Notes: generated by a model not told the origin, from the sequence alone. Counted from the first letter of the stretch, positions 8 to 18,489 are shown. The stretch is DNA of 22,931 bases from a virus (IMGVR_UViG_3300029787_005267:1-22931), one strand, 5' to 3'. Program-made: numbers and translations.

Positions 8-295
8 ATGTTACACGGCCTTAAAGATAAGATATGGCCAGCATATCAAGAAGTACAAGCATCAAATTTATCGAAGTCTTGTAGCAATGAAAAAGAGGCC
101 ATGGAAACTGTCACCATCCGCTCTAAAGAACAAAATGAGCCATGTCACTTTGAAAAAGTGGGGGAAAGATACGTAGTATATAGAACACGAGATAAAAAGG
201 TAATGAAATCAATTAATTATTTTAGACCTGATTTACATCAATTCTTTACAGATGATGAAAAAATGAGGTTTAGAACTCAACATGTAGGCATTTAA
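8..295 (+). CDS. Hypothetical protein, possibly the C-terminal part of a longer gene
   Basis: I do not recognise this protein. The reading frame stays open up to the left edge of the window, so the ATG at 8 may be internal and the true start may lie outside. The visible 95 residues are polar and charged, with a basic stretch around residues 58-67 (RTRDKKVMK) and no membrane segment or catalytic motif that I can name. It ends in TAATG, sharing its last base with the start codon of the DNA polymerase gene, so the two are probably translationally coupled. Its place directly before the polymerase suggests a replication-region gene, but no function can be assigned. Confidence 0.6.
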   Translation: MLHGLKDKIWPAYQEVQASNLSKSCSNEKEAMETVTIRSKEQNEPCHFEKVGERYVVYRTRDKKVMKSINYFRPDLHQFFTDDEKMRFRTQHVGI

Positions 296-2103
296 TGTAT
301 CAATCTATATGGTCTATAAAAAATAAAAAAACAAATATTTCAAGGGTATGGGTCTGGGATGATAAGCATGGATTAATAGAAGATTATAAGTGGGAGAATA
401 AAGCTTATGTAGAAGATCCTAATGGAACTTATGTAGGTTTAAATGGTAAAAAGTTAAAAAAGACCTTAGATTATGTTTATGATGTTCCCACTGAATCCAA
501 TGGTTGGGGTCAGGCAACTGAAGTAACTTCTAAAGTAACAGGAAAAACATATTCAAGAATTCCTAATACTTTAGGTTTACACTATGCAGATGCTGATGAT
601 AAACAGAAATTTATATTAGAAGCTTATGGTGATGATGATGTCCCCTCTACAGGACATAGTGAAATGTTTTTTGATATTGAGTGTGAAATAGTAGGGGCAT
701 TAACAGAGGAAAATATACAAAATCCCAGAGGTAAAATTACTTCAATAGCATGGTACCATAGACAGGAAAAAAGATATGGGTGTCTTATTTTAGATAAACA
801 AAACCAAATAGAAAAAAGACCAGCATATAAGAAAGATGGTTATATTAAAGAAATCATACCTTGTGATTCAGAATATGATTTATTAGATAAGTTTTTAGCC
901 ATATATAGGGAAATTAATCCAAGAATACTAATAGGATACAACTCAGATTTTTTTGATGTTCCTTATCTTTATTATAGAATAATGAAAGTATTAGGGGAGG
1001 ATAGAGAAAAAGAATTATCTGAAGTTAATATAGTTGAATCCCAACTTGAATCTTATTATTGGAATAAACGAAATACTTATGTTAATATAGCTGGGGTTGA
1101 ATCCTTAGATTATATGAGATTACATAAAAAATTTGGTTGGAAAGATGAAGAAAGTTGGGCTTTAAATGCTATAGGAGAAAAATATGTTAATTTAGGTAAA
1201 GTAGATTATGAGGGTAATTTAGATGATTTATATAAAAAAGATATTAATAAATATATTGAATATAATTTTAGGGATGTTGAAATATTAGTTAAATTAGATG
1301 AAAAATTTCAGTATATAGATTTAGTTAAAAATTTATCACATAAAGGGAAACATAGATACCAAGAAGTATATTCTAATAGTCTTACTCAAGATGGGGCTAT
1401 ATCGGCTTATTTACTTAAAAATAATATTATACCTCCTAGTAAGGCAATTAAACCTATGATTAAAAAAAATTACGCTGGTGGTTATTTATTTTGTCCTAAA
1501 GCTGGCAAGTATGATTATGTTTTTGACTTAGATTATACTTCACTATATCCATCAATAATTATGGAATTAAATATAGGTAAAGAAACCTATAAAGGTCGCA
1601 TTATAGATGAAGGTGATGATAGGAATAATTATTTATCTTTTATAGATTTAAAAAAACGGGATCCCGAGGAATTATTATTAGTAGAAAATTCAAAAGGTAA
1701 AAAAATTGATTTAAAAGTAAGTGAAATACTTAATCTAGTAGAATCAAACAATTTATCAATTACTGCCAATGGAGTAATGTTTACCCAAGATAAACAATCT
1801 CTGCTATCAATAGTATTAGAAAGATGGTTTAATGAAAGAGTAGAATATAAAAATAAAATGAAGGAGGCCTATAAAGCAAATGATAAAGAAAAAGGTGAAT
1901 ATTATTTTTTAATGCAATATACAATGAAAATTTTATTAAATAGTTTGTATGGTGCAACTGCTTTACCTAGGTTTAGATATGGAAATGTTATTTTAGCGGA
2001 GTCTATTACATTGACAGGACAAAGATTAATACAGGCTAGTGCTTATCATGCTAATTATTATTTTAATAATATATTAAATGGCAAAGAAAAATTAGAATTA
2101 TGA
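295..2103 (+). CDS. 43: Family B DNA polymerase, N-terminal part (exonuclease, motifs A and B)
   Basis: This is the first 602 residues of a T4 gp43-type replicative DNA polymerase. The 3'-5' exonuclease is intact: Exo I is FFDIECE with D127 and E129, Exo II is GYNSDFFD ending at D221, and Exo III is YNFRD (Y323, D327). The polymerase part has motif A, DYTSLYPS, with metal-binding D413, and motif B, K545 to G553 (KILLNSLYG). The protein stops about 50 residues after motif B, before motif C (DTDS), which lies in a separate gene starting at 2844. The two parts add up to 913 residues, close to the 898 of T4 gp43. It overlaps the following cupin gene by ATGA. No intein sequence is visible at its end. 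The two products presumably assemble into one active enzyme. Confidence 0.95.
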   Translation: MYQSIWSIKNKKTNISRVWVWDDKHGLIEDYKWENKAYVEDPNGTYVGLNGKKLKKTLDYVYDVPTESNGWGQATEVTSKVTGKTYSRIPNTLGLHYADADDKQKFILEAYGDDDVPSTGHSEMFFDIECEIVGALTEENIQNPRGKITSIAWYHRQEKRYGCLILDKQNQIEKRPAYKKDGYIKEIIPCDSEYDLLDKFLAIYREINPRILIGYNSDFFDVPYLYYRIMKVLGEDREKELSEVNIVESQLESYYWNKRNTYVNIAGVESLDYMRLHKKFGWKDEESWALNAIGEKYVNLGKVDYEGNLDDLYKKDINKYIEYNFRDVEILVKLDEKFQYIDLVKNLSHKGKHRYQEVYSNSLTQDGAISAYLLKNNIIPPSKAIKPMIKKNYAGGYLFCPKAGKYDYVFDLDYTSLYPSIIMELNIGKETYKGRIIDEGDDRNNYLSFIDLKKRDPEELLLVENSKGKKIDLKVSEILNLVESNNLSITANGVMFTQDKQSLLSIVLERWFNERVEYKNKMKEAYKANDKEKGEYYFLMQYTMKILLNSLYGATALPRFRYGNVILAESITLTGQRLIQASAYHANYYFNNILNGKEKLEL

Positions 2104-2579
2104 ATGAAATAGATTATAGGCCATGGGGTAAGTTTGAAGTATTATTAAATGCTCCTGATGTTAAAGTTAAAAAAATAATAATTGATCCTAATAAAAGGCT
2201 ATCCTACCAATATCATGATAAACGAAGAGAACAGTGGGTTGTAGTTAAGGGCAATTTAACTATTATTTTAGACGGTGATAAAGTATTTAGATACCCAGGA
2301 GAATCAATACACATTCCTATGGGAACTAAACATAGAGCATGGAATGAAACTGATGAAATAGTTACTTTCATTGAAGTACAAACTGGAACCTATTTTGGAG
2401 AAGATGATATAGTAAGATTAGAAGACGATTATATGAGATCAGATGATGTACAAGAGTTTTTAGAGCATGTAGATAAACCAGGTACTTGGTCAGAAGAAGA
2501 CAGTAAAATAAACACAGTAGGAGGCTTAACTAATGATAAAGAAGGATCTTTTATGAAGTTTCAAAATAAAATAAAATAA
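2100..2579 (+). CDS. Cupin protein, mannose-6-phosphate isomerase type II-like
   Basis: This is a 159-residue single-domain cupin. It opens with RPWGKFEVL (7-15), the hallmark of the cupin domain in type II mannose-6-phosphate isomerases and GDP-mannose pyrophosphorylase fusions. H39, E44, EQWVVVKG (44-51), IPMGTKHR (72-79) and GEDDIVRLEDDY (100-111) follow the same family pattern. A second metal-ligand histidine of the usual HxH motif is replaced by aspartate (HDK). The family interconverts fructose-6-phosphate and mannose-6-phosphate or acts on related sugars. It fits the sugar genes from 11849 onwards but lies about 9 kb away, between the two halves of the DNA polymerase. Its start overlaps the upstream stop (ATGA). 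The acidic tail after residue 112 is not part of the usual domain. Substrate unknown. Confidence 0.8.
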   Translation: MNEIDYRPWGKFEVLLNAPDVKVKKIIIDPNKRLSYQYHDKRREQWVVVKGNLTIILDGDKVFRYPGESIHIPMGTKHRAWNETDEIVTFIEVQTGTYFGEDDIVRLEDDYMRSDDVQEFLEHVDKPGTWSEEDSKINTVGGLTNDKEGSFMKFQNKIK

Positions 2580-2580
2580 A

Positions 2581-2844
2581 ATGGCTTTAAAAAAACAATC
2601 AATAAGAAAAAATATGCTCATTTTAGTTAATGGACATGATATACCAAAAGAAGAACTAATTTTAATTAGTGAAAGCTGGTCTGAAACCCAAGAAAAGTTT
2701 TTTAGAAAAATGTTAAAACAGGGAGGTTCATTTACTTTAAATAAAGTTAAATACGAGATAAAATTAATAAAAGATCTAAGAACTAGATCTGATGGAACTA
2801 GAGATACAGGAATATTACAAATTCCTGGTGATACAAGATTTTAA
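2581..2844 (+). CDS. Small hypothetical protein between the DNA polymerase halves
   Basis: An 87-residue protein that I cannot place in a family. It has a basic N-terminus (ALKKQSIRKN), a helical middle (SWSETQEKFFRKMLKQGG, 32-49) and a beta-like, basic C-terminal part. I looked for GIY-YIG, HNH and LAGLIDADG signatures, since homing endonucleases often separate split phage genes, and found none. It starts one base after the cupin stop codon and its stop overlaps the start of the polymerase C-terminal gene (TAATG), so it is translated as part of this chain. Codon use looks like that of its neighbours. Confidence 0.75.
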   Translation: MALKKQSIRKNMLILVNGHDIPKEELILISESWSETQEKFFRKMLKQGGSFTLNKVKYEIKLIKDLRTRSDGTRDTGILQIPGDTRF

Positions 2845-3779
2845 TGAGATTTTTAGAACAAACACCACTTAAAATATCTAAACCAGAATGGGATAATTTC
2901 TGCATTTATATTGATACAGATTCAAATTATTTTGGGGTAGAAAAAATATTAAAACATTTAGTTCCTGATTTTGATAATCTTACAGATGAAGAAAAGGATA
3001 TTAAAACAGAAAAATTAGCCATTGCTACCCAAAATAAAATTAATAAGGATTTAAATACCTATATGGGGATTGAAGCATTTAAATCTAAAAATAAAGGAAG
3101 TAAATTTGATATTAAAACTGAATGTGTAATCAGAGCAGCTTATTATAGAGCCACTAGAAGATATGCTCAGTGGATTACTAAAGAAGAGGGATTAGATAAG
3201 GAATCTTTAAATATTAAAGGTCTTGAATTTATGAAATCTAATTTTCCTCCTATAATGGGTAAGTTTTTTAAAAATATGGTTTTTAAAGCATTAAAAAATG
3301 CTACTCAAAAAGAAATATTAAATGATGTTAAAGACTTTAAGGATAATATTTTAAATGGTAAAATTCCAATTTATGATTTAGGTAACCCTACATCAGTAAA
3401 AAAAATAAGAAACTATATTGATGTTCTACCTAGGGCTGGAGAAATGTTTACTATAATTAAAAAAGGAGCTCCTGCCCCTGTAAAAGCAGCTATTAAATAT
3501 AATGATTTATTAAGATTTTGGGGTTTAGATAAATATAATAAGCAAATTACTATGGCGGATAAAGTTAAATGGTTTTATTTAAAAGATAACCCATATAAAA
3601 TAGAATCTTTGGCATATATAGAAGGTGACACCCCAGATAAAATACAGGAATTTTTAAATACATATGTAGATAGACAAAAAATATTTGATAATGTATTACT
3701 CAATAAATTAGAAGGATTTTTTAATGATTTTGAATGGAGATTAGATTTAAACCCATATGCAGGTTTATTAGATTATTAG
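2844..3779 (+). CDS. 43: Family B DNA polymerase, C-terminal part (motif C and thumb)
   Basis: This 311-residue protein carries the missing catalytic motif C of the polymerase: CIYIDTDSNYF, with D24 and D26 as the metal-binding pair. RRYAQWI further on matches the KKRYA region of family B enzymes. The rest matches the palm-thumb part of gp43, and the short acidic-hydrophobic tail (NPYAGLLDY) could be the clamp-binding peptide, which is an inference. The first 20 residues cover the variable loop just before motif C, so the break falls in a tolerant place and both parts look intact. It cannot work alone because D413 and motif B are on the protein encoded at 295-2103. Its start overlaps the preceding stop (TAATG). 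Confidence 0.93.
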   Translation: MRFLEQTPLKISKPEWDNFCIYIDTDSNYFGVEKILKHLVPDFDNLTDEEKDIKTEKLAIATQNKINKDLNTYMGIEAFKSKNKGSKFDIKTECVIRAAYYRATRRYAQWITKEEGLDKESLNIKGLEFMKSNFPPIMGKFFKNMVFKALKNATQKEILNDVKDFKDNILNGKIPIYDLGNPTSVKKIRNYIDVLPRAGEMFTIIKKGAPAPVKAAIKYNDLLRFWGLDKYNKQITMADKVKWFYLKDNPYKIESLAYIEGDTPDKIQEFLNTYVDRQKIFDNVLLNKLEGFFNDFEWRLDLNPYAGLLDY

Positions 3780-3811: not shown

Positions 3812-4576
3812 ATGATTAGTAAAAATACAATCCAAAGTTTTGTTAACAAATATTATTTAGGAGAAACCCATAATGCAGTTGTATGGGAAGTTAAAGATAA
3901 TACTCTATCATTAGAAGCAGGAAAAAGTTCAGGTGGATGTTGTAGGATTAAGTTTGATAATTTTATATTTAATGATGTTAAATTGCCTATTTTTGATACT
4001 AGTAAACTAAATAAATTTTTAAGTGTTTTAACAGAAGATTTAGTTATTGAAGTTATAACTAATGTCAATGGTATTTCTAATAAATTAAAGTTGGCCGATT
4101 CAAATTTTGATTTAGAATATCAATTAGCAGCAGAAAGTGTTATACCTACTTCTAAAGTACCTACAGAGGAAGGCTTATTTAAGCATAATGAAATAGACTT
4201 GAAGGATATGGTAGTTGAAATTACTAATGAGGATATTACAAGATTATTAAAAGCTAAGACAGCATTACCAGAAAATGAAATTGTATTATTAAAAACTAAT
4301 ACAGATTTAGATGGTAATTACAATTGTGAACTAATATATGGTGCTGATACTAAATTCTCAGACAAAATTAGTTATCAATTACCCGCTACATTTATAAAAC
4401 CATTTGACTTTAAATTACCTTTTGATGTAAATATATTTTCAAAAATATTAAGTGCAAATAAAGATATGTCAAGTGGAAAAATAAAATTAAGTAAAAAAGG
4501 AGTAATACAAATATCTTTTACTTCTAATGATATGTATAGTGAGTACTATATGACTAGAAAAGAAACAACAAATTAA
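3812..4576 (+). CDS. 45: DNA polymerase sliding clamp (gp45-like)
   Basis: A 254-residue protein matching T4-type sliding clamps in length (T4 gp45 has 228) and in its alternating beta-strand pattern. The best-preserved part is near the C-terminus, LPFDVNIFSKILSANKDMSS (199-218) followed by GKIKLSKKGVIQISF, which resembles the last domain of phage clamps. The clamp forms a ring around DNA that tethers the polymerase and, in T4, also works as an activator of late transcription. It directly follows the polymerase, and the genes for the matching loader (gp44, gp62) are downstream, which supports the call. It is preceded by one of the few true gaps. No catalytic motif is expected. Similarity at single-residue level is low, so this rests on overall pattern plus context. 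Confidence 0.78.
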   Translation: MISKNTIQSFVNKYYLGETHNAVVWEVKDNTLSLEAGKSSGGCCRIKFDNFIFNDVKLPIFDTSKLNKFLSVLTEDLVIEVITNVNGISNKLKLADSNFDLEYQLAAESVIPTSKVPTEEGLFKHNEIDLKDMVVEITNEDITRLLKAKTALPENEIVLLKTNTDLDGNYNCELIYGADTKFSDKISYQLPATFIKPFDFKLPFDVNIFSKILSANKDMSSGKIKLSKKGVIQISFTSNDMYSEYYMTRKETTN

Positions 4577-5369: not shown

Positions 5370-5792
5370 ATGAGTACATTAGACATTTTTGAAAGGCATA
5401 TAAGTCCTTTCGACATCCTTTTTAGGAACCACTTTAAATCTGACAGCACATTTCAACCTGTTGGAAATTTCAAACTACCACATCCACTTAATATTTTCTA
5501 TGATGACGCAGGACTTCATTTTGAAGTTGCTTGTACTGGTCTAACTAAAAAAGACATAGTCATAGATATAGAGGGGGATATATTAAAAATTAGTTACACT
5601 AAACCAGATAAAGAAGAACTCCATCCAGGATTAATTCATAATGGTTTATCTAAAAAATCATTTGATTTAAGGTATAAAATAGCACCTAAATTTGATTTAG
5701 GTCATATTGATGCTACTTTAGCAAATGGTCTATTAGAAATATTTATACCCTTAGCTGAAGAAGCTAAACCAAAGTCAATTAAAATTAAATAA
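5370..5792 (+). CDS. hsp20: Small heat-shock protein Hsp20 (alpha-crystallin family)
   Basis: A 140-residue small heat-shock protein. The alpha-crystallin domain covers about residues 35-130, beginning at PLNIFYDDAGLHFEVACTG and ending with the diagnostic LANGLLEIFIPL, followed by a lysine-rich tail. Such ATP-independent chaperones bind unfolding proteins as oligomers and pass them to other chaperones. Hsp20 genes are common in marine T4-like phages, often thought to aid capsid or scaffold folding. It stands alone between the two largest gaps in the window, so it probably has its own transcript; a GroES-GroEL pair follows within 800 bases. The ATG at 5370 was chosen because the upstream ATG at 5365 is followed at once by a stop (ATG ATA TGA). 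No Shine-Dalgarno sequence is visible. Confidence 0.92.
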   Translation: MSTLDIFERHISPFDILFRNHFKSDSTFQPVGNFKLPHPLNIFYDDAGLHFEVACTGLTKKDIVIDIEGDILKISYTKPDKEELHPGLIHNGLSKKSFDLRYKIAPKFDLGHIDATLANGLLEIFIPLAEEAKPKSIKIK

Positions 5793-5795
5793 AAG

Positions 5796-5828
5796 TTTTA
5801 TCAAAAAGCGTGTCCTAGCGTAGTTTTG
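5796..5828 (+). promoter_or_regulatory. Candidate Bacteroidota-type promoter before the 5863 gene and groES-groEL
   Basis: TAGTTTTG at 5821-5828 matches the Bacteroidota -7 box TAnnTTTG exactly. TTTT at 5796-5799 stands 21 bases upstream, where the -33 TTTG box would be. Transcription would start near 5835 and read into the gene at 5863 and then groES and groEL. The -33 box is imperfect and the match could be chance in AT-rich DNA. Confidence 0.4.
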
Positions 5829-5830
5829 TT
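5810..5830 (-). repeat. Right arm of an inverted repeat flanking hsp20
   Basis: GTGTCCTAGC, three bases, GTTTTGTT. Read on the minus strand this is AACAAAAC-N3-GCTAGGACAC, matching the arm at 5292-5314 in 17 of 18 block positions. The blocks include a GC-rich decamer that is unusual for this AT-rich DNA. The arm overlaps the TAGTTTTG promoter candidate. Confidence 0.6.
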
Positions 5831-5848
5831 TGTATATTAACGTACAAA
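5829..5848 (+). promoter_or_regulatory. Short inverted repeat in the 5' leader of the 5863 gene
   Basis: TTTGTA and TACAAA form a perfect 6-bp inverted repeat around TATTAACG. It lies just after the promoter candidate, at the expected transcription start, so it could be an operator or a weak leader hairpin. Confidence 0.35.
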
Positions 5849-5862
5849 TAAATTAGTTATAT

Positions 5863-6183
5863 ATGGCAAGAAAACCTAAATCAATAACAACCATCTCGGA
5901 TCCTTTGTTAGACCCTTTTTATATCACTAAGGATGATGTCTGTTATACAGTAAACGAAAGAATTGAACCTAATAAAAACCACTTTAGATCTAAGGGTGGT
6001 GGTAAATCATATGCTAAACCACAGGGGTATTATCCTAACTTTGAACAAGCATTACAAAAAATAGCCCAGGAAAAGCTTCATACTAGAAAAAATTATGAAT
6101 CATTATCCTTATTTTTAGACGAATTTAAATCAATAAAATTAAATATTAAAAATTATACAGATGGAATTAGAAGCACTATTTAA
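5863..6183 (+). CDS. Small hypothetical protein upstream of groES
   Basis: A 106-residue protein I cannot assign. It has a conserved-looking core, DPFYITKDDVCYTVNERI (17-34), then a glycine/lysine-rich stretch (SKGGGKSY), GYYPNFEQALQKIAQEKL (55-72) and a helical lysine-rich end. There are no signal peptide or membrane segments. It is the first gene after the promoter candidate, and its 3' end overlaps the groES start by 23 bases, so its translation may influence that of groES. A regulatory or DNA-binding role is possible but not shown. The ATG at 5863 is the first in frame after the gap and has no Shine-Dalgarno sequence. Confidence 0.75.
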   Translation: MARKPKSITTISDPLLDPFYITKDDVCYTVNERIEPNKNHFRSKGGGKSYAKPQGYYPNFEQALQKIAQEKLHTRKNYESLSLFLDEFKSIKLNIKNYTDGIRSTI

Positions 6184-6538
6184 TGCCGTTATAGTTAAAC
6201 CCCAAGACACTGAGGAAACTACTTATGGCTCCATAATTGTACCTGACTTAGGTAAAGAAGTAAATGAAATAGGAGAAATTGTATCAGTTGGACCTGGTCA
6301 ATCTACTATTACAGGTGAATTAATACCTACTACTTTACAAGTAGGAGATATAGTAGTACTACCTACCCAAGGTTTTACTAAAATCCCATATGATGGGGAA
6401 GATTATTATGTTGGGCCTGAAAATCAAGTACTAGCAAAAATTAATAAAAGGTCAGACTTTAATGAAGCATTAAGTGAAACCTTAAAAAATATAAGTGAAG
6501 AAGAAATTAATAATTTAAAAGATATATCTAATGAGTAA
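6161..6538 (+). CDS. groES: GroES-like co-chaperonin
   Basis: A 125-residue GroES homologue. The N-terminal ALFNAVIVKP (5-14) matches the RPLHDRVIVKR start of bacterial GroES. The mobile loop that docks onto GroEL follows, with the hydrophobic tripeptide IIV in GSIIVPDLGKE (23-33), then GEIVSVGPG, VGDIVVLP and the closing beta strand (VLAKI). GroES caps the GroEL ring and times ATP-driven folding. It is about 28 residues longer than the usual 97: residues after 96 form a polar, acidic helical tail (SDFNEALSETLKNISEEEIN) not seen in host GroES. It begins inside the preceding gene and overlaps groEL by 8 bases, so the two are probably made together. T4 gp31 has the same role but is much more diverged. 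Confidence 0.9.
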   Translation: MELEALFNAVIVKPQDTEETTYGSIIVPDLGKEVNEIGEIVSVGPGQSTITGELIPTTLQVGDIVVLPTQGFTKIPYDGEDYYVGPENQVLAKINKRSDFNEALSETLKNISEEEINNLKDISNE

Positions 6539-8150
6539 ACAAGTAGAATTTGGCTCTGAAGCTAGAAATAATTTAGTTAGAGGTATAGATACATTAGCTG
6601 ATGCTGTAGTATCTACATTAGGACCTAATGGAAGAAATGTTGTAATATCTAATAGTGATGGACCCCAATCTACTAAAGATGGTGTCACAGTAGCTAAGTC
6701 TATTAGTCTAAAGGATCCTAATCAAGAATTAGGAATTCAGTTAGTAAAACAAGCAGCTATTAAAACTGCAGAAAAAGCAGGTGATGGTACAACTACATCT
6801 ACTTTATTAGCTCGAGAAATGATTAAAGCTGGTCTTAATGCTTTAAATAATAATGAAAATGCTGTTGAAATTAAAAGAGATATAGATAAAACAGTTAAAT
6901 CTGTAGTACACAATTTAAGAACTAATCTATCAGAGGATATATCTGGTGAAAAACAGTTAGAACAAATTGCTACAATATCATCTAATAATGATAAAGAAAC
7001 AGGTAAATTAGTAGCTACTGCTATAGAAAAAGTAGGAATGGAGGGGGTTGTCCACATTGAAGAATCCCGTACTGGTGAAACATATTTAGAAACTGTTGAA
7101 GGGTTACAGTTTGAAAGAGGTTATAAGTCACCATATTTCGTTACGGATAATAATAGTATGACTGCCGTCTTAGAGAGCCCCCTCATTCTTATTACTGAAC
7201 ATAAATTAACTAAAGTAAAAGAACTATTGCCCGTTTTAGAAGCTGTATCAGCTCAGGCTAAATCCTTACTAATAATAGCTGAAGATATAGATCAGGAAGC
7301 TTTAGCTACTTTAGTAGTAAATAAGATGAGAGGTACCATGCAAGTTTGTGCTGTTAAGGCACCTGATTTTGGTGATAGAAGAAAATTAATTCTTGAAGAC
7401 ATTGCTATAACTACTGGAGGTCAAGTTTTTAGTAGAGAAAAAGGAATGAAATTAGATAAATTTAGTTGGGAGTGGTTTGGTGAAGCTAGAACTGTTACAG
7501 TAGAAAAAGAACAAACTACTATTGTTGATGGTAAGGGTGAAGTTGAGGTAATAGAAAAAAGAATTGAGGAATTACAAACACAAATAGATAAATCTAATAC
7601 TCCTTTTGAAGTAGAAAAACTACAAGAAAGACTAGCTAAATTTGTTGGTGGGGTAGCTATTATTCATGTTGGTGGAAATACTGAAACTGAAATGAAAGAG
7701 AAAAAAGATAGAGTAGATGATGCATTACATGCAACTAAAGCTGCTATTGAAGAAGGAATAGTACCAGGAGGTGGTACAGCACTATTATATGCTTCATCAG
7801 GTTTAGAAGGTAAAACTACTGGAGCACAAATTGTAATTCAATCATGTGCTAAACCTTTTAATCAAATTTTGGTTAATGCAGGTTGGGATGAAGTTGATGG
7901 TAGAATTATGGCTGATAATTTAGTTAATTCTGGTAATGATACATGGACTGGATTTGATATTAAAACGGGGAAAAAAACTAATATGAAAAAAGCAGGTATT
8001 ATTGATCCTACTAAAGTAGCTAGGTTAGCATTAGAAAATGCAGCTTCTATTGCAGGTACAGTTTTATTAACTGAATGTACTGTAGTAGATGAACCCCAAG
8101 ATGATGATAAAAAACCACAAATAGATCCATCAATGATGGGGATGATGTAA
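6531..8150 (+). CDS. groEL: GroEL chaperonin (Hsp60), full length
   Basis: A full-length 539-residue group I chaperonin, which folds proteins inside a double-ring chamber using ATP. The nucleotide site is intact: LGPNGRN (30-36), D50 in [14 protein letters not shown] (85-89) and the catalytic D397 in VDDALHAT. The substrate- and GroES-binding face is preserved: Y198, Y202 and F203 in GYKSPYF. GIVPGGG and the C-terminal equatorial part are also normal. The tail is short (DPSMMGMM), instead of the repeated GGM of most hosts. Its N-terminal third departs from host GroEL in many surface positions, suggesting long residence in phages rather than recent capture. It overlaps groES by 8 bases. No Shine-Dalgarno sequence is seen. 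Confidence 0.97.
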
Positions 8151-8166
8151 AATAATTTCGTATATT

Positions 8167-8439
8167 ATGGCTAAAACAAAAATTGAAGAAAAAAATATAT
8201 TAATTGCAAGAAGGGTTCCACCTGGAGATAAATGGAGATTAGTTGCAAATGAACCAGATGGTCCTGTACATAAAACATTAACAGATACTTTAGAAGCCTA
8301 TATGATAAAAACTGGATTTAAAGGTAATTATAGATTAGAGCCACTTAAAAGTACACTATATGCAATTGATAGTAAAGAAACAATAGTTAAACCTGAACCA
8401 GTTAAAAAATATTCTATTTATGGTGAATACGGAGAATAG
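8167..8439 (+). CDS. Small hypothetical protein before the clamp loader
   Basis: A 90-residue protein that I do not recognise. The core DKWRLVANEPDGPVHKTLTD (21-40), followed by YRLEPLKSTLYAID, looks like a small mixed alpha/beta fold. There are no catalytic motifs, cysteine clusters or membrane segments. It follows groEL after 16 non-coding bases that contain TATATTA, and its last 20 bases overlap the start of the gp44 gene, which ties it to clamp loader expression. Confidence 0.75.
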   Translation: MAKTKIEEKNILIARRVPPGDKWRLVANEPDGPVHKTLTDTLEAYMIKTGFKGNYRLEPLKSTLYAIDSKETIVKPEPVKKYSIYGEYGE

Positions 8440-9334
8440 TTTATTAGTAGAAAAATATAGACCAACTAAATTGGAAAATTATGTTGGTAATGAGAGCATT
8501 AAAAAATCTATTACTAAATATTTAGACCAAAAAGATATTCAAAATTTAATATTTTATGGACCTGCAGGTACAGGTAAAACTACATTAGCTAAATTAATAG
8601 TAAAAAATCTAGATTGTGATTATTTATATATTAATGCTTCTGATGAACGTGGTATTGAAACAATAAGAGAAAAAGTAGTTAGTTTTTCTAGCTCAGCTTC
8701 CTTAGATGGTATTAAAGTAGTTATTTTAGATGAGGCAGATTTTTTAACTATACAGGCACAAGCATCATTAAGAAATGTAATAGAAACATTTTCACGTACT
8801 ACAAGATTTATTATGACTTGTAATTTTGTAGAACGTATTATAGATCCCTTACAATCTAGATGTCAAGTACTTAAAATTGTACCTCCTACTAAAAAAGATG
8901 TTGCTAAACATTTAAATTGGATTCTACAACAGGAATCTATTACACATGATATAAATGATTTAGTACCATTAGTTAATCAATACTATCCTGATTTACGTAA
9001 ATGTATTAATACAATACAATTATCTACACAAGATAGTACCTTAAAATTAGATCAATCAATATTAGTATCATCTAACTATATAGATAAAGTTATTACTTTA
9101 CTATCAGCACCAACTAATAATTTCAAAAATATTAGACAAGTAATAGCTGACGCTAATGTAGATGATTTTGATGAATTATTTAAATCATTATATAATAGAG
9201 CAAGTGAATATTTACCTAATAAAGAAGGTACAGCTGCTATTTTAATAAATGAACATCAATATAAAGCAAATTTCCGTATTGACAAGGAAATAAATACAAT
9301 GTCATTAATCCAAAATTTAATTAATAATAAGTAA
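8420..9334 (+). CDS. 44: Clamp loader large subunit, AAA+ ATPase (gp44-like)
   Basis: A 304-residue AAA+ ATPase of the clamp loader type (T4 gp44, 319 residues; related to RFC small subunits). It starts with the typical VEKYRPTKLENYVGNE (10-25). It then has Walker A GPAGTGKTT (47-55), Walker B ILDEAD (102-107), sensor 1 TCN (133-135) and the arginine finger SRC (146-148). Four copies with one gp62 subunit open the sliding clamp and load it at primer ends. The C-terminal third is the helical collar. In T4 the order is 45-44-62-regA-43; here the oxygenase, hsp20, groES, groEL and small genes separate 45 from 44. The start overlaps the previous gene by 20 bases. Confidence 0.94.
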   Translation: MVNTENSLLVEKYRPTKLENYVGNESIKKSITKYLDQKDIQNLIFYGPAGTGKTTLAKLIVKNLDCDYLYINASDERGIETIREKVVSFSSSASLDGIKVVILDEADFLTIQAQASLRNVIETFSRTTRFIMTCNFVERIIDPLQSRCQVLKIVPPTKKDVAKHLNWILQQESITHDINDLVPLVNQYYPDLRKCINTIQLSTQDSTLKLDQSILVSSNYIDKVITLLSAPTNNFKNIRQVIADANVDDFDELFKSLYNRASEYLPNKEGTAAILINEHQYKANFRIDKEINTMSLIQNLINNK

Positions 9335-11848: not shown

Positions 11849-13285
11849 ATGAAAGAACACTTTAAGTACATCCCTCAAAATAAGAGGAAAAAAATATTAT
11901 TAATCTGTGATGATATTAGAGTACACTCAGGCATAGCTACTGTAACTAAAGAGATTGTTGTACACACAGCACAACATTTTAATTGGATACAAATGGCTGG
12001 AGCTATTAACCACCCAGAAAAAGGTAAAGTATTTACTTTGGATCAAGAAATTAATAATTTAACTGGATTAAAAGATGCTTCTTGTAAATTATATCCTGTA
12101 GATGGGTATGGTAGTCCAGATATTTTAAGAGCTACAATTAGATCAGAAAAACCTGATGCTATAATGCTTGTTACTGATCCTAGATATTTCACTTGGGTAT
12201 TTAATATGGAGTCTGAAATTAGGAAAAATATACCTATTACATATTTAAATATTTGGGATGATTATCCTGCACCAATGTATAATAGAGCATTTTATGAAGC
12301 CTGTGATTTACTAATGGGTATCTCTAAACAAACAGTAAATATAAATAAGTTAGTATTAAAAGACTGTAATAAACCAAGATTATTTGAATATGTACCTCAT
12401 GGTTTAAATTCAAATATTTATAAACCTTTACCTGAGGATAATCCCGAATTGTTAAAAATGTATAATGAAACCTTTCCTAATGGAACTGATTTTGTTTTGT
12501 ATTTTAATTCTAGAAATATTAGAAGAAAACAAATACCAGATTCTTTATTAGCGTTTAGAGCATTTTTAGACTCTTTACCTATTGAAAAAGCTAAAAGGTG
12601 CTATTTTGTTTTACATACAGAATTATCTCATGAAGCAGGTACTAATTTATTAAAGGTAAAAGAATATCTATTTGATGAAAAATACCCAGATCAAATTAAA
12701 TTTTCATTAACTAAAATGACCCAGGAACAACTTAATTGTCTTTATAATATAGCTGATGCTCAAATTTTATTAACTTCTAATGAAGGTTGGGGTTTAACTA
12801 TTACTGAAGCTATGTTAGCTGGTACTCCTATAATTGCCAATGTAACTGGTGGTATGCAAGATCAAATGAGGTTTGTAGACGATAAAGGCGAATGGTTTAC
12901 TCCAGATGATAAAATACCTTCTAATCATAGAGGTACATTTAAAGAACATGGTGAATGGGCTTTCCCAGTTTACCCTTCTTCTAGATCTGTTCAGGGTTCA
13001 CCTCCTACCCCTTATATATTTGATGATAGGTGTAGATGGGAAGATGCTGTAGAACAAATTAAAAAATTATATAAATTAGGTAGAAAAAAAAGAAAAGAAT
13101 TAGGATTAAAAGGTAGGGAATGGGCTCTATCTGATGAAGCAGGATTTACTTCTAAACATCAAGCTGAAAGAGTAATAAATATTTTTGATGAATTATTTGA
13201 CACTTGGAAACCTAAAGAAAAGTACGAAATCATTAATGCTACTGAATATAAAGGTAGATTGTTAAACCATGAATTAATATACTAA
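11849..13285 (+). CDS. Glycosyltransferase, GT4-type (GT-B fold)
   Basis: A 478-residue glycosyltransferase with the two-domain GT-B fold. The N-terminal acceptor domain begins with KILLICDDIRVHSGIA (19-34), a Rossmann strand plus glycine loop. The C-terminal donor domain has the E-x7-E motif EGWGLTITE (E312, E320) and GTPII, diagnostic of GT4 retaining enzymes that use nucleotide-activated sugars. It has no signal peptide or membrane anchor, so it works in the host cytoplasm. It begins the long glycan chain and overlaps the next glycosyltransferase by TAATG. An insertion around residues 345-395 (proline- and serine-rich) is not part of the common core. The upstream AGGA is one of the few Shine-Dalgarno-like sequences here. 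Substrates unknown. Confidence 0.9.
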   Translation: MKEHFKYIPQNKRKKILLICDDIRVHSGIATVTKEIVVHTAQHFNWIQMAGAINHPEKGKVFTLDQEINNLTGLKDASCKLYPVDGYGSPDILRATIRSEKPDAIMLVTDPRYFTWVFNMESEIRKNIPITYLNIWDDYPAPMYNRAFYEACDLLMGISKQTVNINKLVLKDCNKPRLFEYVPHGLNSNIYKPLPEDNPELLKMYNETFPNGTDFVLYFNSRNIRRKQIPDSLLAFRAFLDSLPIEKAKRCYFVLHTELSHEAGTNLLKVKEYLFDEKYPDQIKFSLTKMTQEQLNCLYNIADAQILLTSNEGWGLTITEAMLAGTPIIANVTGGMQDQMRFVDDKGEWFTPDDKIPSNHRGTFKEHGEWAFPVYPSSRSVQGSPPTPYIFDDRCRWEDAVEQIKKLYKLGRKKRKELGLKGREWALSDEAGFTSKHQAERVINIFDELFDTWKPKEKYEIINATEYKGRLLNHELIY

Positions 13286-14604
13286 TGAATAAACCAAGAT
13301 TTGTAATTTCTTGCCCATTTGATACCTACTCAGGTTATGGTGCAAGATCAAGAGATATAATTAAAGCTATAATTGAATTAGATAAATATAAAGTTGAACT
13401 ACTTTCACAAAGATGGGGTGAAACTTCATGGGGATTTTGTAATGATAATCCTGAATGGAAATTCTTATTAAATTATGCAGTAGCACCTAATTGGCAAAGT
13501 ACTAAACCAGATATTTGGATGCAAATAACTATCCCTAATGAATTTGCTCCTGTTGGAAAGTATAATATTGGTTGTACAGCTGGTATTGAATCTACTGCTT
13601 GCCCTGCAGAATGGGTTGAAGGTTTAAATAGAATGAATATAAATTGGGTATCATCAAAACATAGTAAAAATGTATTTGAGGGTATGCAATATGAAAAGAA
13701 AGATAAAAATACTAATCAAACTATCGAAGTAATTAAAAATACTAAACCTATACATGTAGTATTTGAAGGTGTTAATTTAAATAAATATAAACCTATATTT
13801 CCTTCGGAAATTAAATCTGTTAAATTAGATGAAATTAAAGATCACTGGTGTTATCTTTTTGTAGGGCATTGGATGCAAGGTGAGTTAGGACATGATAGAA
13901 AGAATGTAGGTTTGATGATTAGAACTTTTTTTGAAACATTTAAGGATAAAAAGAAAAAACCAGCTTTAATTTTAAAAACTTCTGTTGGAGTGGATTCTTA
14001 TATTAGTAGAGATGAAGTATTAGATAGAATTAAAGGTATTAGACAACAAGTTAAATCTAAAGATTTACCTAATATTTACTTATTAAGTGGTAATTTTAGT
14101 GATGAAGAAATGAATGAATTGTATAATAATAAAAAAATTAAATCTATGATTAGTTTTACTAAAGGTGAGGGTTATGGTAGACCTTTATTAGAATTTAGTT
14201 TAACTGGTAAACCTATTATAGCTTCAGGTTGGTCAGGTCAGGTTGATTTTTTAAATAAAAACTTTTCTATTTTAGTAGGTGGTCAATTAGAAAGTGTACA
14301 CAGTTCTGCTGCTAATAAGTGGTTAATAAAGGAAAGCCAATGGTTTAAACCGGATTTAAACCACATAAATCATTATTTACAAGATGTATTTAATAGATAT
14401 AATTTTTATAAATTAAATTCTAAACAACAAAGTAAATTTTCTAAAGGTAAGTTTAGTTTTGATAAAATGAAAGAACTTTTAGATAATATATTAGATGCTA
14501 ATTTACCTAAATTTGCTGAACAGGTTAGTCTAAAATTACCTAAGTTAAAAAAGGCTAAACCTGAATTACCTAAGTTACAGTTACCTAAATTAAAAAAAGT
14601 ATAA
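13285..14604 (+). CDS. Glycosyltransferase, GT4-type, with LPK-repeat tail
   Basis: A 439-residue GT-B enzyme. Its N-terminal part contains SGYGARSRDIIKAI (16-29) as the acceptor-domain glycine loop. The donor domain has E-x7-E as EGYGRPLLE (E295, E303), followed by GKPII. It is related in layout to the preceding glycosyltransferase but clearly diverged, so this is an old duplication or two separate gains. The last 35 residues are a low-complexity basic tail of LPK units (LPKF, LPKLKK, LPKLQ, LPKLKK), encoded by repeated TTACCTAA. The tail may bind an acidic polymer or membrane, which is speculative. It overlaps its upstream neighbour by TAATG. Confidence 0.88.
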   Translation: MNKPRFVISCPFDTYSGYGARSRDIIKAIIELDKYKVELLSQRWGETSWGFCNDNPEWKFLLNYAVAPNWQSTKPDIWMQITIPNEFAPVGKYNIGCTAGIESTACPAEWVEGLNRMNINWVSSKHSKNVFEGMQYEKKDKNTNQTIEVIKNTKPIHVVFEGVNLNKYKPIFPSEIKSVKLDEIKDHWCYLFVGHWMQGELGHDRKNVGLMIRTFFETFKDKKKKPALILKTSVGVDSYISRDEVLDRIKGIRQQVKSKDLPNIYLLSGNFSDEEMNELYNNKKIKSMISFTKGEGYGRPLLEFSLTGKPIIASGWSGQVDFLNKNFSILVGGQLESVHSSAANKWLIKESQWFKPDLNHINHYLQDVFNRYNFYKLNSKQQSKFSKGKFSFDKMKELLDNILDANLPKFAEQVSLKLPKLKKAKPELPKLQLPKLKKV

Positions 14605-14605
14605 T

Positions 14606-15046
14606 ATGCAACACGATGAAATAATAAATTGTCCTAAATCTGGAGGTGATTTATGTTATAAAATTGAAGTAAATAAAGATATTACTAATTATTATAGTTT
14701 ATCCTGTGGGTTTTGGACTAATAGTTTAATGAAAAAAGATAGTGAGTTTTATAATGAACAGATGCAACTATTACCTGAGTTATATAAAGATTTAGCCTGG
14801 GAAGACCCAGAAACTGAGTTAATTTGGTTACCTCATACCATAAATGATTCTATTAATGGTATGGTTTATGCTGCTGGTACAGATAAAGATAATTGGCAAT
14901 GGGCAGCAGTTAAAACTATAGAATTACCTGAAGAGGAAAAAGAACGTTTTAAAACAACACATAAAGCGGATATGAGCACAATAACATATTATCCAGAACG
15001 TGATTATATGGATGCTCTTTCGTATATTGGTGTATTACCTGAATAA
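14606..15046 (+). CDS. Conserved-looking phage hypothetical protein
   Basis: A 146-residue soluble protein. Striking parts are CPKSGGDLCYK (9-19), YYSLSCGFWTNSLM (29-42), LPELYKDLAWEDPET (56-70) and WLPHTIN. I recall near-identical patterns in hypothetical proteins of cyanophages and other marine T4-like phages, but with no known function. C9, C17 and C34 do not form a clear zinc site. The composition (many Trp, Tyr, acidic residues) looks structural or binding rather than catalytic. It lies between glycosyltransferases but may be a separate phage core gene rather than a glycan enzyme. Confidence 0.75.
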   Translation: MQHDEIINCPKSGGDLCYKIEVNKDITNYYSLSCGFWTNSLMKKDSEFYNEQMQLLPELYKDLAWEDPETELIWLPHTINDSINGMVYAAGTDKDNWQWAAVKTIELPEEEKERFKTTHKADMSTITYYPERDYMDALSYIGVLPE

Positions 15047-15047
15047 T

Positions 15048-15671
15048 ATGAAAATAAGTTATGCAATTACAGTTTGTAATGAATTAAACGAAATTACTAA
15101 ATTAATAAATTTTCTTTTAGATAAAAAAAGAATAGATGATGAGATAGTAATTCTATTTGATAAAAAAAATGGAATACCTGAAGTTTGGAGTTTATTATCT
15201 GAACTTAAAGGTGAACCTAATGTTTCTTATCATGCTGCTTCATTTAAAAATCATTTTGCAGATTGGAAAAACCATTTAACTAGTCTTTGTAGTGGAGATT
15301 ATATATTCCAAATAGATGCAGATGAAATTCCAAATGAACAGTTATTAATCAACTTACCTCATATTTTAAAAGATAACTCTAATTGTGAAGTTTATTTAGT
15401 TTCTAGAGTTAATACTGTTAAAGGTATGACCCAAGAACATATTAAAGAATGGCATTGGAATGTAAATGAAGAAGGATGGGTTAATTGGCCTGATCCTCAA
15501 TGGAGAATATATAAAAATAAACCCGAAATAAAATGGAAAAATAAAGTCCATGAAAAATTAGAGGGATATGATTCCTGGGCCTTTTTACCTCATGAAGAAG
15601 AATATGCCCTTTATCATCATAAAGATATAAAACGACAAGAAAAACAAAATAAATATTATGCAACACTCTAA
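15048..15671 (+). CDS. Glycosyltransferase, GT2-type (GT-A fold)
   Basis: A 207-residue GT2-family enzyme. The start MKISYAITVCNELNEI is the classical GT2 opening, a strand followed by NE. The nucleotide-sugar and metal site is QIDADEIP, whose DAD matches DxD. The acceptor part has the tryptophan-rich WHWNVNEEGWVNWPDPQWR and HEKLEG, typical of GT2 enzymes. An in-frame ATG at 15000 would add 16 hydrophobic residues inside the preceding gene. I chose 15048 because the family pattern begins exactly there and it follows the upstream stop by one base. It overlaps the next gene by 14 bases. It is short for GT2, so only the catalytic domain is present. Donor and acceptor unknown. Confidence 0.85.
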   Translation: MKISYAITVCNELNEITKLINFLLDKKRIDDEIVILFDKKNGIPEVWSLLSELKGEPNVSYHAASFKNHFADWKNHLTSLCSGDYIFQIDADEIPNEQLLINLPHILKDNSNCEVYLVSRVNTVKGMTQEHIKEWHWNVNEEGWVNWPDPQWRIYKNKPEIKWKNKVHEKLEGYDSWAFLPHEEEYALYHHKDIKRQEKQNKYYATL

Positions 15672-16815
15672 AAAAATATGGTATGCTCCCTATAAATTTG
15701 AATCATATGGGGAGGAAGAAATTAAAGCAGTAGAAGAATCATTAAGATCAGGTTGGTTAGGAGGACAAGGACCAAAATGTATTGAATTTGAAAAACAAAT
15801 AGCTAAACGATTTGGTAAAAAATATGGCGTATTTGTTAATTCGGGTTCATCAGCTTGTTTATTATCTATAGCGGCCTTAGATTTACCTAAAGGTAGTAAA
15901 ATCATTACTCCTGCTTGTACTTTTGCTACTACCTTAGCTCCCATTATTCAATTAGGTTTCATTCCTATATTTGTAGATGTTGGATTAAATGATTATGTTG
16001 CTAACATAGAAGATGTTATTAATGCTATAGATGATGAAGTTAAAGCCATTATGTTACCTAATTTAATAGGTAATAAACCTGATTGGGATTTATTAAAAGC
16101 TGGTTTAGATTTAATTGACAGAGATGACATTTACTTAATAGAGGATTCAGCGGATACTATTACTGAAACTAATATTACTGATGTTTCAACAACTAGTTTT
16201 TATGCCTCACATGTTATTACTGCTGGTGGTGTAGGAGGTATGGTAATGTTTAATGATAAAAAACATGTAACCAAATGTTTACAATATAGAGATTGGGGTA
16301 GATTAGGTGATGACTCCGAAATTATGGATGATAGATTTAACCATTCAGTAGATGGTATAGCTTATGATCACAAATTTTTATACAGCGTATTAGGTTACCA
16401 TATGAAAGCATGTGAGATGAACGCAGCATTTGGGCTTGTACAATTAGATAGATTTAAAAAATTTGAAAAAATAAGAAGAGCTAATGTTGAAAGATATTTA
16501 GAATTATTAGATGGTGTTGGTGATTTAATCTTACCTGATGATAAAATTAAACCTAATTGGTTAGCTATACCTTTACAAACTGAACGTAGATTTGAATTAT
16601 TAACATTTTTAGAAGATAATAATGTACAAACTAGAGTTACATTTGCTGGAAATGTTACTAGACATCCTGTATATAGAGAATATTTACAAGATTTCAAAAA
16701 CTCTGATATAATAATGAAGAATGGATTTTTATTAGGTGCTCATCATGGAATGACTATAGATGATGTTGAACATGTATGTGGTTTAATTAAAATTTTCTTT
16801 AATAAAGATAAATGA
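15658..16815 (+). CDS. DegT-family PLP/PMP sugar enzyme with histidine at the lysine position (dehydratase-like)
   Basis: A 385-residue DegT/DnrJ/EryC1-fold protein. SGSSACLLS (62-70), the EDSAD motif with D163 and the closing RDWGR region are typical. The residue that normally is the PLP-binding lysine is H185, in SFYASHVITAGG. The same Lys-to-His change defines sugar 3-dehydratases: ColD (GDP-4-keto-6-deoxymannose to the 3,6-dideoxy sugar) and the E1 enzyme RfbH. The part YDHKFLYSVLGYHMK resembles RfbH, but the RfbH iron-sulphur cysteines just after RDWGR are absent (RDWGRLGDDSEIMDDRF), as in ColD. It probably removes the C3 oxygen of a nucleotide 4-keto sugar. An RmlD-like reductase is encoded next, overlapping by ATGA. 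Transamination is unlikely without the lysine. Substrate unknown. Confidence 0.87.
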   Translation: MQHSKKIWYAPYKFESYGEEEIKAVEESLRSGWLGGQGPKCIEFEKQIAKRFGKKYGVFVNSGSSACLLSIAALDLPKGSKIITPACTFATTLAPIIQLGFIPIFVDVGLNDYVANIEDVINAIDDEVKAIMLPNLIGNKPDWDLLKAGLDLIDRDDIYLIEDSADTITETNITDVSTTSFYASHVITAGGVGGMVMFNDKKHVTKCLQYRDWGRLGDDSEIMDDRFNHSVDGIAYDHKFLYSVLGYHMKACEMNAAFGLVQLDRFKKFEKIRRANVERYLELLDGVGDLILPDDKIKPNWLAIPLQTERRFELLTFLEDNNVQTRVTFAGNVTRHPVYREYLQDFKNSDIIMKNGFLLGAHHGMTIDDVEHVCGLIKIFFNKDK

Positions 16816-17489
16816 AAGTACTAATTTTTGGTGATGGTTTATTAGGTAAGGAACTAGCGGATAAAACTGGTTGGGATGTTGTATCTAGAAAAACTACAGG
16901 TTTAGATATAACAGATTATGATTCTATAGATAATTTAGTTTCTAAATATGATACCATAGTAAATTGCATTGCCAATACAGATACTTATTCCGAAGATAGA
17001 ATAGAGCATATGAAAGTAAATTATGAATTTGTTGCTACATTAGCTGATATGGTTGAATTTCATGATAAAGTTTTAGTGCAAATATCTACTGAATTTGTAT
17101 ATGCCTTTAATAAAAAACCTGCTAATGAAATAGATTTACCTTTACCTGCTCATAATTGGTATTCTTATAGTAAATTACTTGCAGATGAATATATTAAAGT
17201 AACTGTTCCAAAACATTTAATTTGTAGAACTTTATTTAAACCCATAGATTTTAGTCCTGAAGAAGTTTGGGATGTAAAAACAACAGGAGATAAAGTAGAT
17301 AAAATAGCTGATTTAATTATAGATTTAATTAAAAAACAAGCTCAGGGTGTGTATAATGTTGGAACTGGAAAGAAAAAATTATATAAATTGGCTCCTAAAG
17401 GTACACCTGTTATTAAGGCACCTAAATATGTACCAACAGATACTACTATGGATTTAACTGATCTAAATGAAATAATAGGATTAGATTAA
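16812..17489 (+). CDS. RmlD-like nucleotide-sugar reductase (extended SDR)
   Basis: A 225-residue short-chain dehydrogenase/reductase of the RmlD type. The Rossmann motif is FGDGLLGKE (6-14), the middle has QISTEFVY, and the catalytic pair is Y117 and K121 in YSYSKLLADEY. The C-terminal part has NVGTGKK. RmlD-like enzymes reduce 4-keto groups of dTDP-, GDP- or CDP-sugars using NADPH. It is shorter than RmlD (about 290 residues), with a reduced substrate domain. It directly follows the DegT-type dehydratase, a plausible next step after 3-deoxygenation. Overlaps at both ends (ATGA, TAATG) place it firmly in this chain. Confidence 0.85.
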   Translation: MKVLIFGDGLLGKELADKTGWDVVSRKTTGLDITDYDSIDNLVSKYDTIVNCIANTDTYSEDRIEHMKVNYEFVATLADMVEFHDKVLVQISTEFVYAFNKKPANEIDLPLPAHNWYSYSKLLADEYIKVTVPKHLICRTLFKPIDFSPEEVWDVKTTGDKVDKIADLIIDLIKKQAQGVYNVGTGKKKLYKLAPKGTPVIKAPKYVPTDTTMDLTDLNEIIGLD

Positions 17490-17791
17490 TGAATATATTT
17501 GTAGACATAGATGAGACTATTTGCCATTATGAAGATAAAAGAGAATATCATTTAGCAGTCCCCTCTAAATGGGCAATAAATAAAATTAATGATTTATATG
17601 ATAAAGGAAATACAATTACTTACTGGACAGCTAGAGGATCTGTTTATAAAGATAGAAGGGATGAATATTATAAATTAACTAAAAAACAACTTAAAAAATG
17701 GGGATGTAAGTACCATTATTTAAGTGTTGGAGAAAAACCTGCATATGATTTATTAATATGCGATAAATCTAAAACAATATACCAAATATGA
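17489..17791 (+). CDS. Minimal HAD-family phosphatase
   Basis: A 100-residue HAD-fold hydrolase without a cap domain. The nucleophile motif is FVDIDETIC (D6, D8), motif II is T47 in WTARG, motif III is K83 and the acidic end is D87 and D92 (YDLLICD). It is about half the length of common HAD phosphatases and resembles the small ones in capsule and LPS clusters. A likely role is dephosphorylating a sugar phosphate, for example before the sialic acid steps downstream, but the substrate cannot be read. Overlaps at both ends (TAATG, ATGA). Confidence 0.85.
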   Translation: MNIFVDIDETICHYEDKREYHLAVPSKWAINKINDLYDKGNTITYWTARGSVYKDRRDEYYKLTKKQLKKWGCKYHYLSVGEKPAYDLLICDKSKTIYQI

Positions 17792-18489
17792 AACAAGAAA
17801 TATTAGAAAATTTAGCCACCACAGGAATATGTGTAATTGAAGATTATTACGATAAAGAATTTTGTGAACAAGCAGTAAAAGATATAGAAGATGGGTTAGT
17901 TAAATACCCAGATAAAGTACAATCCGAATCTAAAGAAGGCACATCAGGTGATTTTAGGCTATTTAAAATGGAGAATAGATATGATACAGCCAAAAAATTT
18001 GCTAATGATGAATTATTATTATCTACTGTATCTGAATATTTTGGTTATCCCCTATTAAGTCATTTTGTATTAGGTGGTAAAGTTACTTATAATCCTAATC
18101 AACAAACTAATAGTGGAGGTGGTTGGCATAGAGATAATAGAGCTAAACAAGTTAAAACTTTAGTTTATCTATCAGATGTTTCGGAAGAAAATGGTCCTTA
18201 TTTATTCTTACCTAACTCTGATAAGTTTGATTTGCCTACTAGAGATGGTATTGGTAAAGTTACTAGATATGAAGATAAAGTAATTAATGAATTTTGTAAA
18301 GAAAATAATTTTCAACCATTTAGAGTAGCAGGTAAAGCAGGAACAGTTATATTTTCAGATACTTCATTTATACATAGAGGTGCTAATATTAATTCTGGTA
18401 CTAGATATACTTACACTAATTATTATTTTGAAAACCACCCTCAAAGAATTGCTATAACTGAAAATGATTGGGGTAAAAGTTTTATTTAA
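17788..18489 (+). CDS. PhyH-type 2OG-Fe(II) dioxygenase
   Basis: A 233-residue dioxygenase of the phytanoyl-CoA hydroxylase family. The iron triad is H114-x-D116 in GGGWHRDNR and H196 in SFIHRGAN; R206 is the likely 2-oxoglutarate ligand. VYLSDVSEENGPYLFLPNS (126-144) matches the conserved core. PhyH-type enzymes in glycan clusters hydroxylate sugars, lipids or small molecules. Here it is framed by a HAD phosphatase and a glycosyltransferase, so hydroxylation of a sugar or a carrier is a reasonable guess. This is the second oxygenase in the window; the one at 4580 is only distantly related. Confidence 0.85.
   Translation: MKQEILENLATTGICVIEDYYDKEFCEQAVKDIEDGLVKYPDKVQSESKEGTSGDFRLFKMENRYDTAKKFANDELLLSTVSEYFGYPLLSHFVLGGKVTYNPNQQTNSGGGWHRDNRAKQVKTLVYLSDVSEENGPYLFLPNSDKFDLPTRDGIGKVTRYEDKVINEFCKENNFQPFRVAGKAGTVIFSDTSFIHRGANINSGTRYTYTNYYFENHPQRIAITENDWGKSFI

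Follow-up and report, generated by a model that had tools for sequence, protein, structure and literature searches.

In the viral contig IMGVR_UViG_3300029787_005267:1-22931 (22,931 nucleotides (nt), analysed whole and hereafter called the window), a replicative DNA polymerase of family B (PolB) resembling gp43 of phage T4 is encoded by two genes lying apart from each other, raising the question of whether a working replicase is built from two separate proteins. Split replicases, known from a few isolates, are usually put down to mishaps involving introns, inteins or homing endonucleases. The initial annotation, made from the window alone, had described four open reading frames (ORFs), with two complete genes between the polymerase halves, and all four were recovered as described:

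295..2103, + strand: gp43-N, proposed large subunit of PolB, 602 amino acids (aa), ending ...NGKEKLEL, with the N-terminal domain, the 3'-5' exonuclease (DIE, NSDFFD, RDVE), motif A (DLDYTSLYPS) and motif B (KILLNSLYG)
2100..2103, + strand: ATGA overlap of the gp43-N stop and the cupin start, a putative coupling junction read from the sequence
2100..2579, + strand: cupin of the mannose-6-phosphate isomerase C-terminal type, 159 aa (PF01050, E 1.7e-28)
2581..2844, + strand: orphan gene of 87 aa (ORF call), separated from the cupin by one base (2579 to 2581)
2842..2846, + strand: TAATG junction, the final A of the orphan stop TAA being the first base of the gp43-C ATG
2844..3779, + strand: gp43-C, proposed small subunit of PolB, 311 aa, with motif C (YIDTDS), the RRYAQW palm strands and the thumb

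A polymerase encoded in two parts

The gp43-N protein matches the Pfam families DNA_pol_B_exo1 (E 1.8e-17) and DNA_pol_B (E 2.1e-24). It corresponds to positions 20-569 of PHROG 262 and gp43-C to positions 564-842, while alignment of profiles from clade members with those of the Protein Data Bank places the two proteins on residues 29-612 and 606-885 of RB69 gp43. Pfam, PHROG and RB69 alignments agree with the first description of the exonuclease and motifs A and B in one frame and of motif C and the thumb in another. Since the halves cover these two ranges of RB69 gp43 and add up to 602 + 311 = 913 aa, compared with 898 in T4 and 903 in RB69, little or nothing of the polymerase is missing, as had been claimed from its length. 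The cut, initially described as preceding motif C, could be placed at RB69 ~606-612, after the helix that follows motif B (NSLYG...GQ) and before the motif C strand (YIDTDS). In T4, 34 residues separate the Gln after motif B from DTDS, and the two split ends together lengthen this segment by roughly 20. Exonuclease motifs I-III are intact, with D127, E129, D221 and D327 invariant in the N-half alignment, as are polymerase motifs A, B and C, with invariant D411 and K545/N549 in gp43-N and invariant DTDS at residues 24-27 of gp43-C. The ratio of nonsynonymous to synonymous substitution rates (dN/dS) relative to the related IMG/VR contig L003 is 0.13 for gp43-N, 0.08 for gp43-C and 0.16 for the neighbouring clamp; purifying selection on each half is strong.

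Each half was also modeled in isolation using AlphaFold2 (AF2). The gp43-N model has a mean predicted local distance difference test score (pLDDT) of 89.5, and its sole segment below 50 is the motif A strand (residues 398-412); the gp43-C model has a confident thumb and is weak at residues 94-121, which are palm strands. In Foldseek comparisons with RB69 gp43 the query template-modelling score (TMq) was 0.68-0.77 for gp43-N and up to ~0.7 for gp43-C, and the top 50 structures listed for either model were RB69 or T4 gp43 throughout. In intact RB69 gp43, the motif A strand and the palm strands pack together in the palm sheet. The weak spots of the two models fit, without proving it, a palm assembled in trans.

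Distribution of the split and fate of the two halves

Related loci were collected by three IMG/VR scans using polymerase alignments (~600 matching stretches listed in each) followed by classification at the ORF level, so that all locus counts are lower bounds. At least 112 non-redundant loci including the window (111 without it) carry the split, with the break in the same place of the profile (column 573/570), and at least eight loci within the same clade (L115, L176, L177, L179-L182 and L194) carry a fused gene and are the closest unsplit relatives. In place of the single polypeptide of T4-type gp43, all 112 split loci, the window among them, have two genes. The phages of this clade are uncultured, T4-like and mostly marine; a host assignment from metagenome-assembled genome (MAG) bins of Flavobacteriaceae/Flavobacteriales and Pelagibacter holding clade contigs was dropped, the binning of phage contigs being unreliable. 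The closest annotated phage, at 33-34% identity, is Mel-JY01, whose polymerase is unsplit. Around the fused polB of L115, read gene by gene, the gene order resembles the surroundings of the split gene in the window: polB is flanked by an ORF like that at window 8-295 on its upstream side and by a clamp-like ORF and GroES/GroEL downstream.

The new ends created by the split are themselves conserved. Across the split lineages gp43-N ends in a tail of the form ...ANxHMNKVxRGELKLEL (ANRHMNKV...), and gp43-C begins with a head of the form MKHLExTPWxICDxxDxNxCAYVDTDS, in which Pro8 and Asn18 are invariant and Trp9, Ile11, Cys12 and Asp16 are at least 93% conserved. At least 120 stretches fit a DNA pattern for the head MKHLE(D/E)TPWW. 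Tail and head are still recognisable in nine split loci (L183-L193) whose N half is 70-75% identical to that of the fused L115, and the conserved head was not seen in the fused relatives.

That the source of the window is a metagenomic contig leaves room, in principle, for an assembly artefact or a decayed polymerase, which we regard as barely conceivable. Two other IMG/VR contigs (L002 and L003) have the identical four-gene order, with polymerase halves 87-95% identical at the amino-acid level, and five junction-spanning contigs from GenBank MAGs, assembled outside IMG/VR, also carry the split; these independent assemblies contradict an assembly join at the junctions. Given the anatomy of L002 and L003 and the identical cut in 111 non-redundant diverged loci, the split is neither a chance event nor a join, and decay is at odds with dN/dS around 0.1 and invariant catalytic residues. 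The ORFs could also be separate in appearance only, if programmed frameshifting or bypass at the junction yielded a full-length polymerase. Frameshift fusions are known in phages, and about a third of the clade has an ATGA overlap in a -1 relation; yet none of the 37 ATGA overlaps contains an X-XXY-YYZ slippery heptamer, and at these junctions the C frame is open for only 3-30 nt upstream before a stop. In the window and in 70 of the 111 other split loci, 0.1-4 kb of intervening genes make a frameshift impossible. With genes in the gap of most split loci, frameshift fusion cannot work as a general mechanism, and we consider it very improbable.

Splicing, with the gap acting as an intron or the facing ends carrying a split intein (a 'fractured gene'), seems to us slightly less credible still. 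Fractured PolB genes with split inteins do exist, as in phage MIJ3 (PMC6892783), and the PolB of the uncultured phage LR756508 is broken nearby, with inteins in motif B and at DTDS. However, searching the whole window against Rfam gave no match with E up to 0.5, and the gaps carry conserved genes, are on average 96% coding on the same strand and vary in length from -4 to 4,214 nt. Neither tail nor head is nearly long enough to hold half an intein: gp43-C has 23 residues before DTDS and gp43-N ends soon after the motif B helix, leaving no room for intein blocks, of which none were seen. No intein sequence was found at the facing ends in this clade, and inteins occurred only in LR756508. A second, unsplit gp43, which the initial annotation had listed as a refuting finding, did not occur in any of 11 long clade contigs (56-164 kb), and each of these has a single place for PolB.

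Since covalent rejoining is without support and no second polymerase was found, the halves should assemble as proteins. We propose that the window very probably encodes a stable two-subunit T4-type PolB replicase in which the palm sheet and the catalytic site are completed in trans, and the two-protein active site put forward at the outset stands as the best-supported reading, with frameshift, intein, intron and a second intact gene each left without support. The large subunit would comprise the N-terminal domain, exonuclease, fingers and palm motifs A and B, and the small subunit the motif C hairpin, the remaining palm and the thumb. Both would be produced from one operon by coupled translation, direct in relatives with adjacent halves and via the two small genes in the window, and the chains would bind non-covalently, with a metal site formed by Asp411 of the large subunit and Asp24/Asp26 of the small one. 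Two-chain binding, activity, translational coupling and stoichiometry are what we infer from the genes and the models, and the conserved head of gp43-C is a candidate docking element. Precedent for a two-part enzyme comes from the gp43A and gp43B proteins of Aeromonas phage 25, which are reported to co-purify and to be active (PMC2988022). Three observations weigh against the proposal: the low AF2 confidence at the palm strands may stem from shallow alignments (57 and 65 sequences), the head of gp43-C in the window departs from clade-conserved residues (W9L, C12S, D16W), and the record of the window is itself 24 kb long, so that this very phage may have a second polymerase outside it. The wider proposal, of an obligate two-subunit PolB of single origin kept through a large uncultured marine clade, with a newly evolved docking head and a gap serving as a site of cargo exchange, is one that we favour on balance.

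The gap and the history of the break

Among the 111 split loci other than the window, the halves overlap by ATGA in 37, lie otherwise less than 100 nt apart in 4 and are 100 nt or more apart in 70. They are thus adjacent, mostly through the ATGA overlap, in ~37% of split loci, the others holding one to six gap genes. The commonest of these is the 87-aa orphan, present in 63 of the 71 occupied gaps, for which no Pfam, PHROG or phage match was found. A cytidylyltransferase-like family occurs in 27 occupied gaps and a cupin in nine, and further gap genes resemble an aminotransferase, an epimerase, a pyridoxal phosphate (PLP)-dependent enzyme and a methyltransferase. The adjacent or occupied state changes at least nine times on the tree, compared with 34 for shuffled labels, and the gap may have become an entry and exit site for cargo genes after the split. 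That the orphan is a third subunit required at the split became less likely, since it lies outside the gap in contigs with adjacent or fused polymerase halves. The cupins of relatives measure 113-115 aa compared with 159 aa in the window, where a C-terminal extension of ~45 aa (2444-2579) has no counterpart in the gap cupins of relatives. Sequence similar to this extension lies upstream of the polymerase elsewhere, for example at L007 874-1026 (57% identity), which suggests a fused or moved fragment.

Because the tail and head are alike across the split lineages, one split is to be preferred to several, and it most likely arose from a fused ancestor; the split is probably a clade-wide state of single origin and does not set one phage apart. 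In the trees the fused group sits beside the nine split loci L183-L193, a placement also compatible with a single split and a later re-fusion. That the eight fused members result from secondary re-fusion of an older split, instead of preserving the state before it, is a possibility we take seriously while holding it the less probable history. The N-half tree nests the fused group within the split lineages, as sister to the split loci 70-75% identical to it, and the fused linker of 50 aa, compared with the usual 33-34 in unsplit relatives, has about the length of both split ends combined; on the other hand, the conserved split ends are not visibly kept in that linker, and uniting all split loci in one clade costs a difference in log-likelihood (delta lnL) of 10.4, with p-AU 0.348 in the approximately unbiased (AU) test, so that monophyly is not rejected. 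A scenario entertained for Aeromonas phage 25, in which a homing endonuclease first divided the gene and subsequently disappeared, is rather unlikely here. The initial annotation saw no such gene between the halves, which holds for the window but not clade-wide, since one lineage among the ~71 occupied gaps has a GIY-YIG endonuclease gene (L219 7665-8342) immediately behind the N half. This gene could be a relic of the split or a late invader of the site; with adjacent halves widespread and ~9 parsimony changes between the adjacent and occupied states, a late arrival is as easily envisaged.

Two further splits, in L114 and LR756508, are probably separate events, both falling among fused relatives. 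The second polymerase gene of L114 (5787-5890) reads MKIKKI...YIDT and then meets a stop, the frame being shifted within motif C, apparently through a short insertion that may reflect sequencing error, bypass or decay.

Neighbouring genes and comparison with known systems

The T4-type replisome neighbours of the split polymerase in the window are the following, the clamp loader being assigned by PHROG and Pfam and the clamp by position and length only:

3812..4576, + strand: probable sliding clamp, gp45-like, the next replisome gene
8420..9334, + strand: large subunit of the clamp loader gp44 (PHROG 168, E 1.9e-76; AAA and Gp44_lid domains)

The clamp-like ORF has no direct Pfam or PHROG profile match, and its assignment follows the position and length of the ORF after polB in L115, L114, L004 and L005. 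Between clamp and clamp loader lie Hsp20 and GroEL chaperonin genes (5370-8150), at the place where the fused locus L115 has GroES/GroEL. Further downstream, a long run of glycosyltransferase, DegT aminotransferase, RmlD/epimerase, cytidylyltransferase, methyltransferase and polysaccharide-deacetylase-like genes (11849-22906) is apparently a phage-borne cluster for surface-sugar biosynthesis. Compared with L002, the window differs by 5-12% per 250 nt across most of the polymerase locus and is then 97-100% identical for ~4.5 kb (window ~3700 onward). The change is abrupt and falls close to the end of gp43-C, which makes a recombination boundary at the split-polymerase locus likely.

No earlier report of this split turned up in searches of a full-text library that lacks most subscription papers. 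Split PolB as such is already known; what is new here is the break point, its fixation across a clade and the lack of any detectable splicing element. The split replicase of these phages looks ancestral and stable across the whole clade, with the catalytic aspartates on two chains. It thus lets one ask, in a natural system, how two proteins can make up a palm domain, and it supplies a naturally occurring site at which family B polymerases may be divided in two. Gene callers or marker-gene surveys that look for a single full-length gp43 may count such phages wrongly or leave them out.

The closest annotated relative of both halves, the PolB of Microcystis phage Mel-JY01 (33% identity), belongs to the same lineage but is one unsplit chain of 848 aa. 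The uncultured jumbo phage LR756508.1 (L004, 484 kb) also has PolB in two genes (12001-15054 and 18060-19925), broken between motifs B and C with genes between, but differs by its inteins, inserted at KILIN/S in motif B and at YTD/TDS in the C-half gene; its split is probably independent because it is placed in the mostly fused Mel-JY01 group. The tail of its N half, VMRDGMKMKVKGKELQEEDELVIED, resembles that of L114, VIRNGVQMNIIGNELQEGDDLI, yet the tree does not pair LR756508.1 and L114 as sisters. Pseudomonas phage MIJ3 likewise encodes PolB in two genes, with a split intein and an HNH gene, and its authors proposed splicing (PMC6892783). Further cases of the general kind are found in archaea (PMC4104785, PMC7776575), where the split PolB3 of Methanobacteriales and the split-intein PolB of Nanoarchaeum equitans are family B replicases in two genes, differing in their archaeal nature and in an origin ascribed to intein loss or trans-splicing (PMC4104785). 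The OM43 phages MEP401/402 have a polymerase split into two ORFs with a small gene between, but the enzyme is an unrelated one of family A, for which an intron was suspected (PMC10580990).

The parallel with Aeromonas phages drawn in the initial annotation holds in that a split gp43 exists there: in phages 25 and 44RR, T4-type PolB is likewise encoded by two genes, gp43A and gp43B (Petrov 2010, via PMC2988022). It does not extend to the position of the break, which in Aeromonas phages lies in the fingers, before motif B, 43A ending in ...KKILASRGIKTDH and 43B starting before KILINSLYG, whereas the clade described here is cut after motif B, between motifs B and C. The Aeromonas break carries a homing endonuclease (phage 25) or an untranslated insert (44RR), with a group I intron in 43B, whereas our clade has cargo genes or nothing at the break (cupin and orphan in the window, GIY-YIG in one other lineage). 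By analogy, the polymerase of this clade would work like gp43A/gp43B of phage 25, yet it is not of the Aeromonas type.
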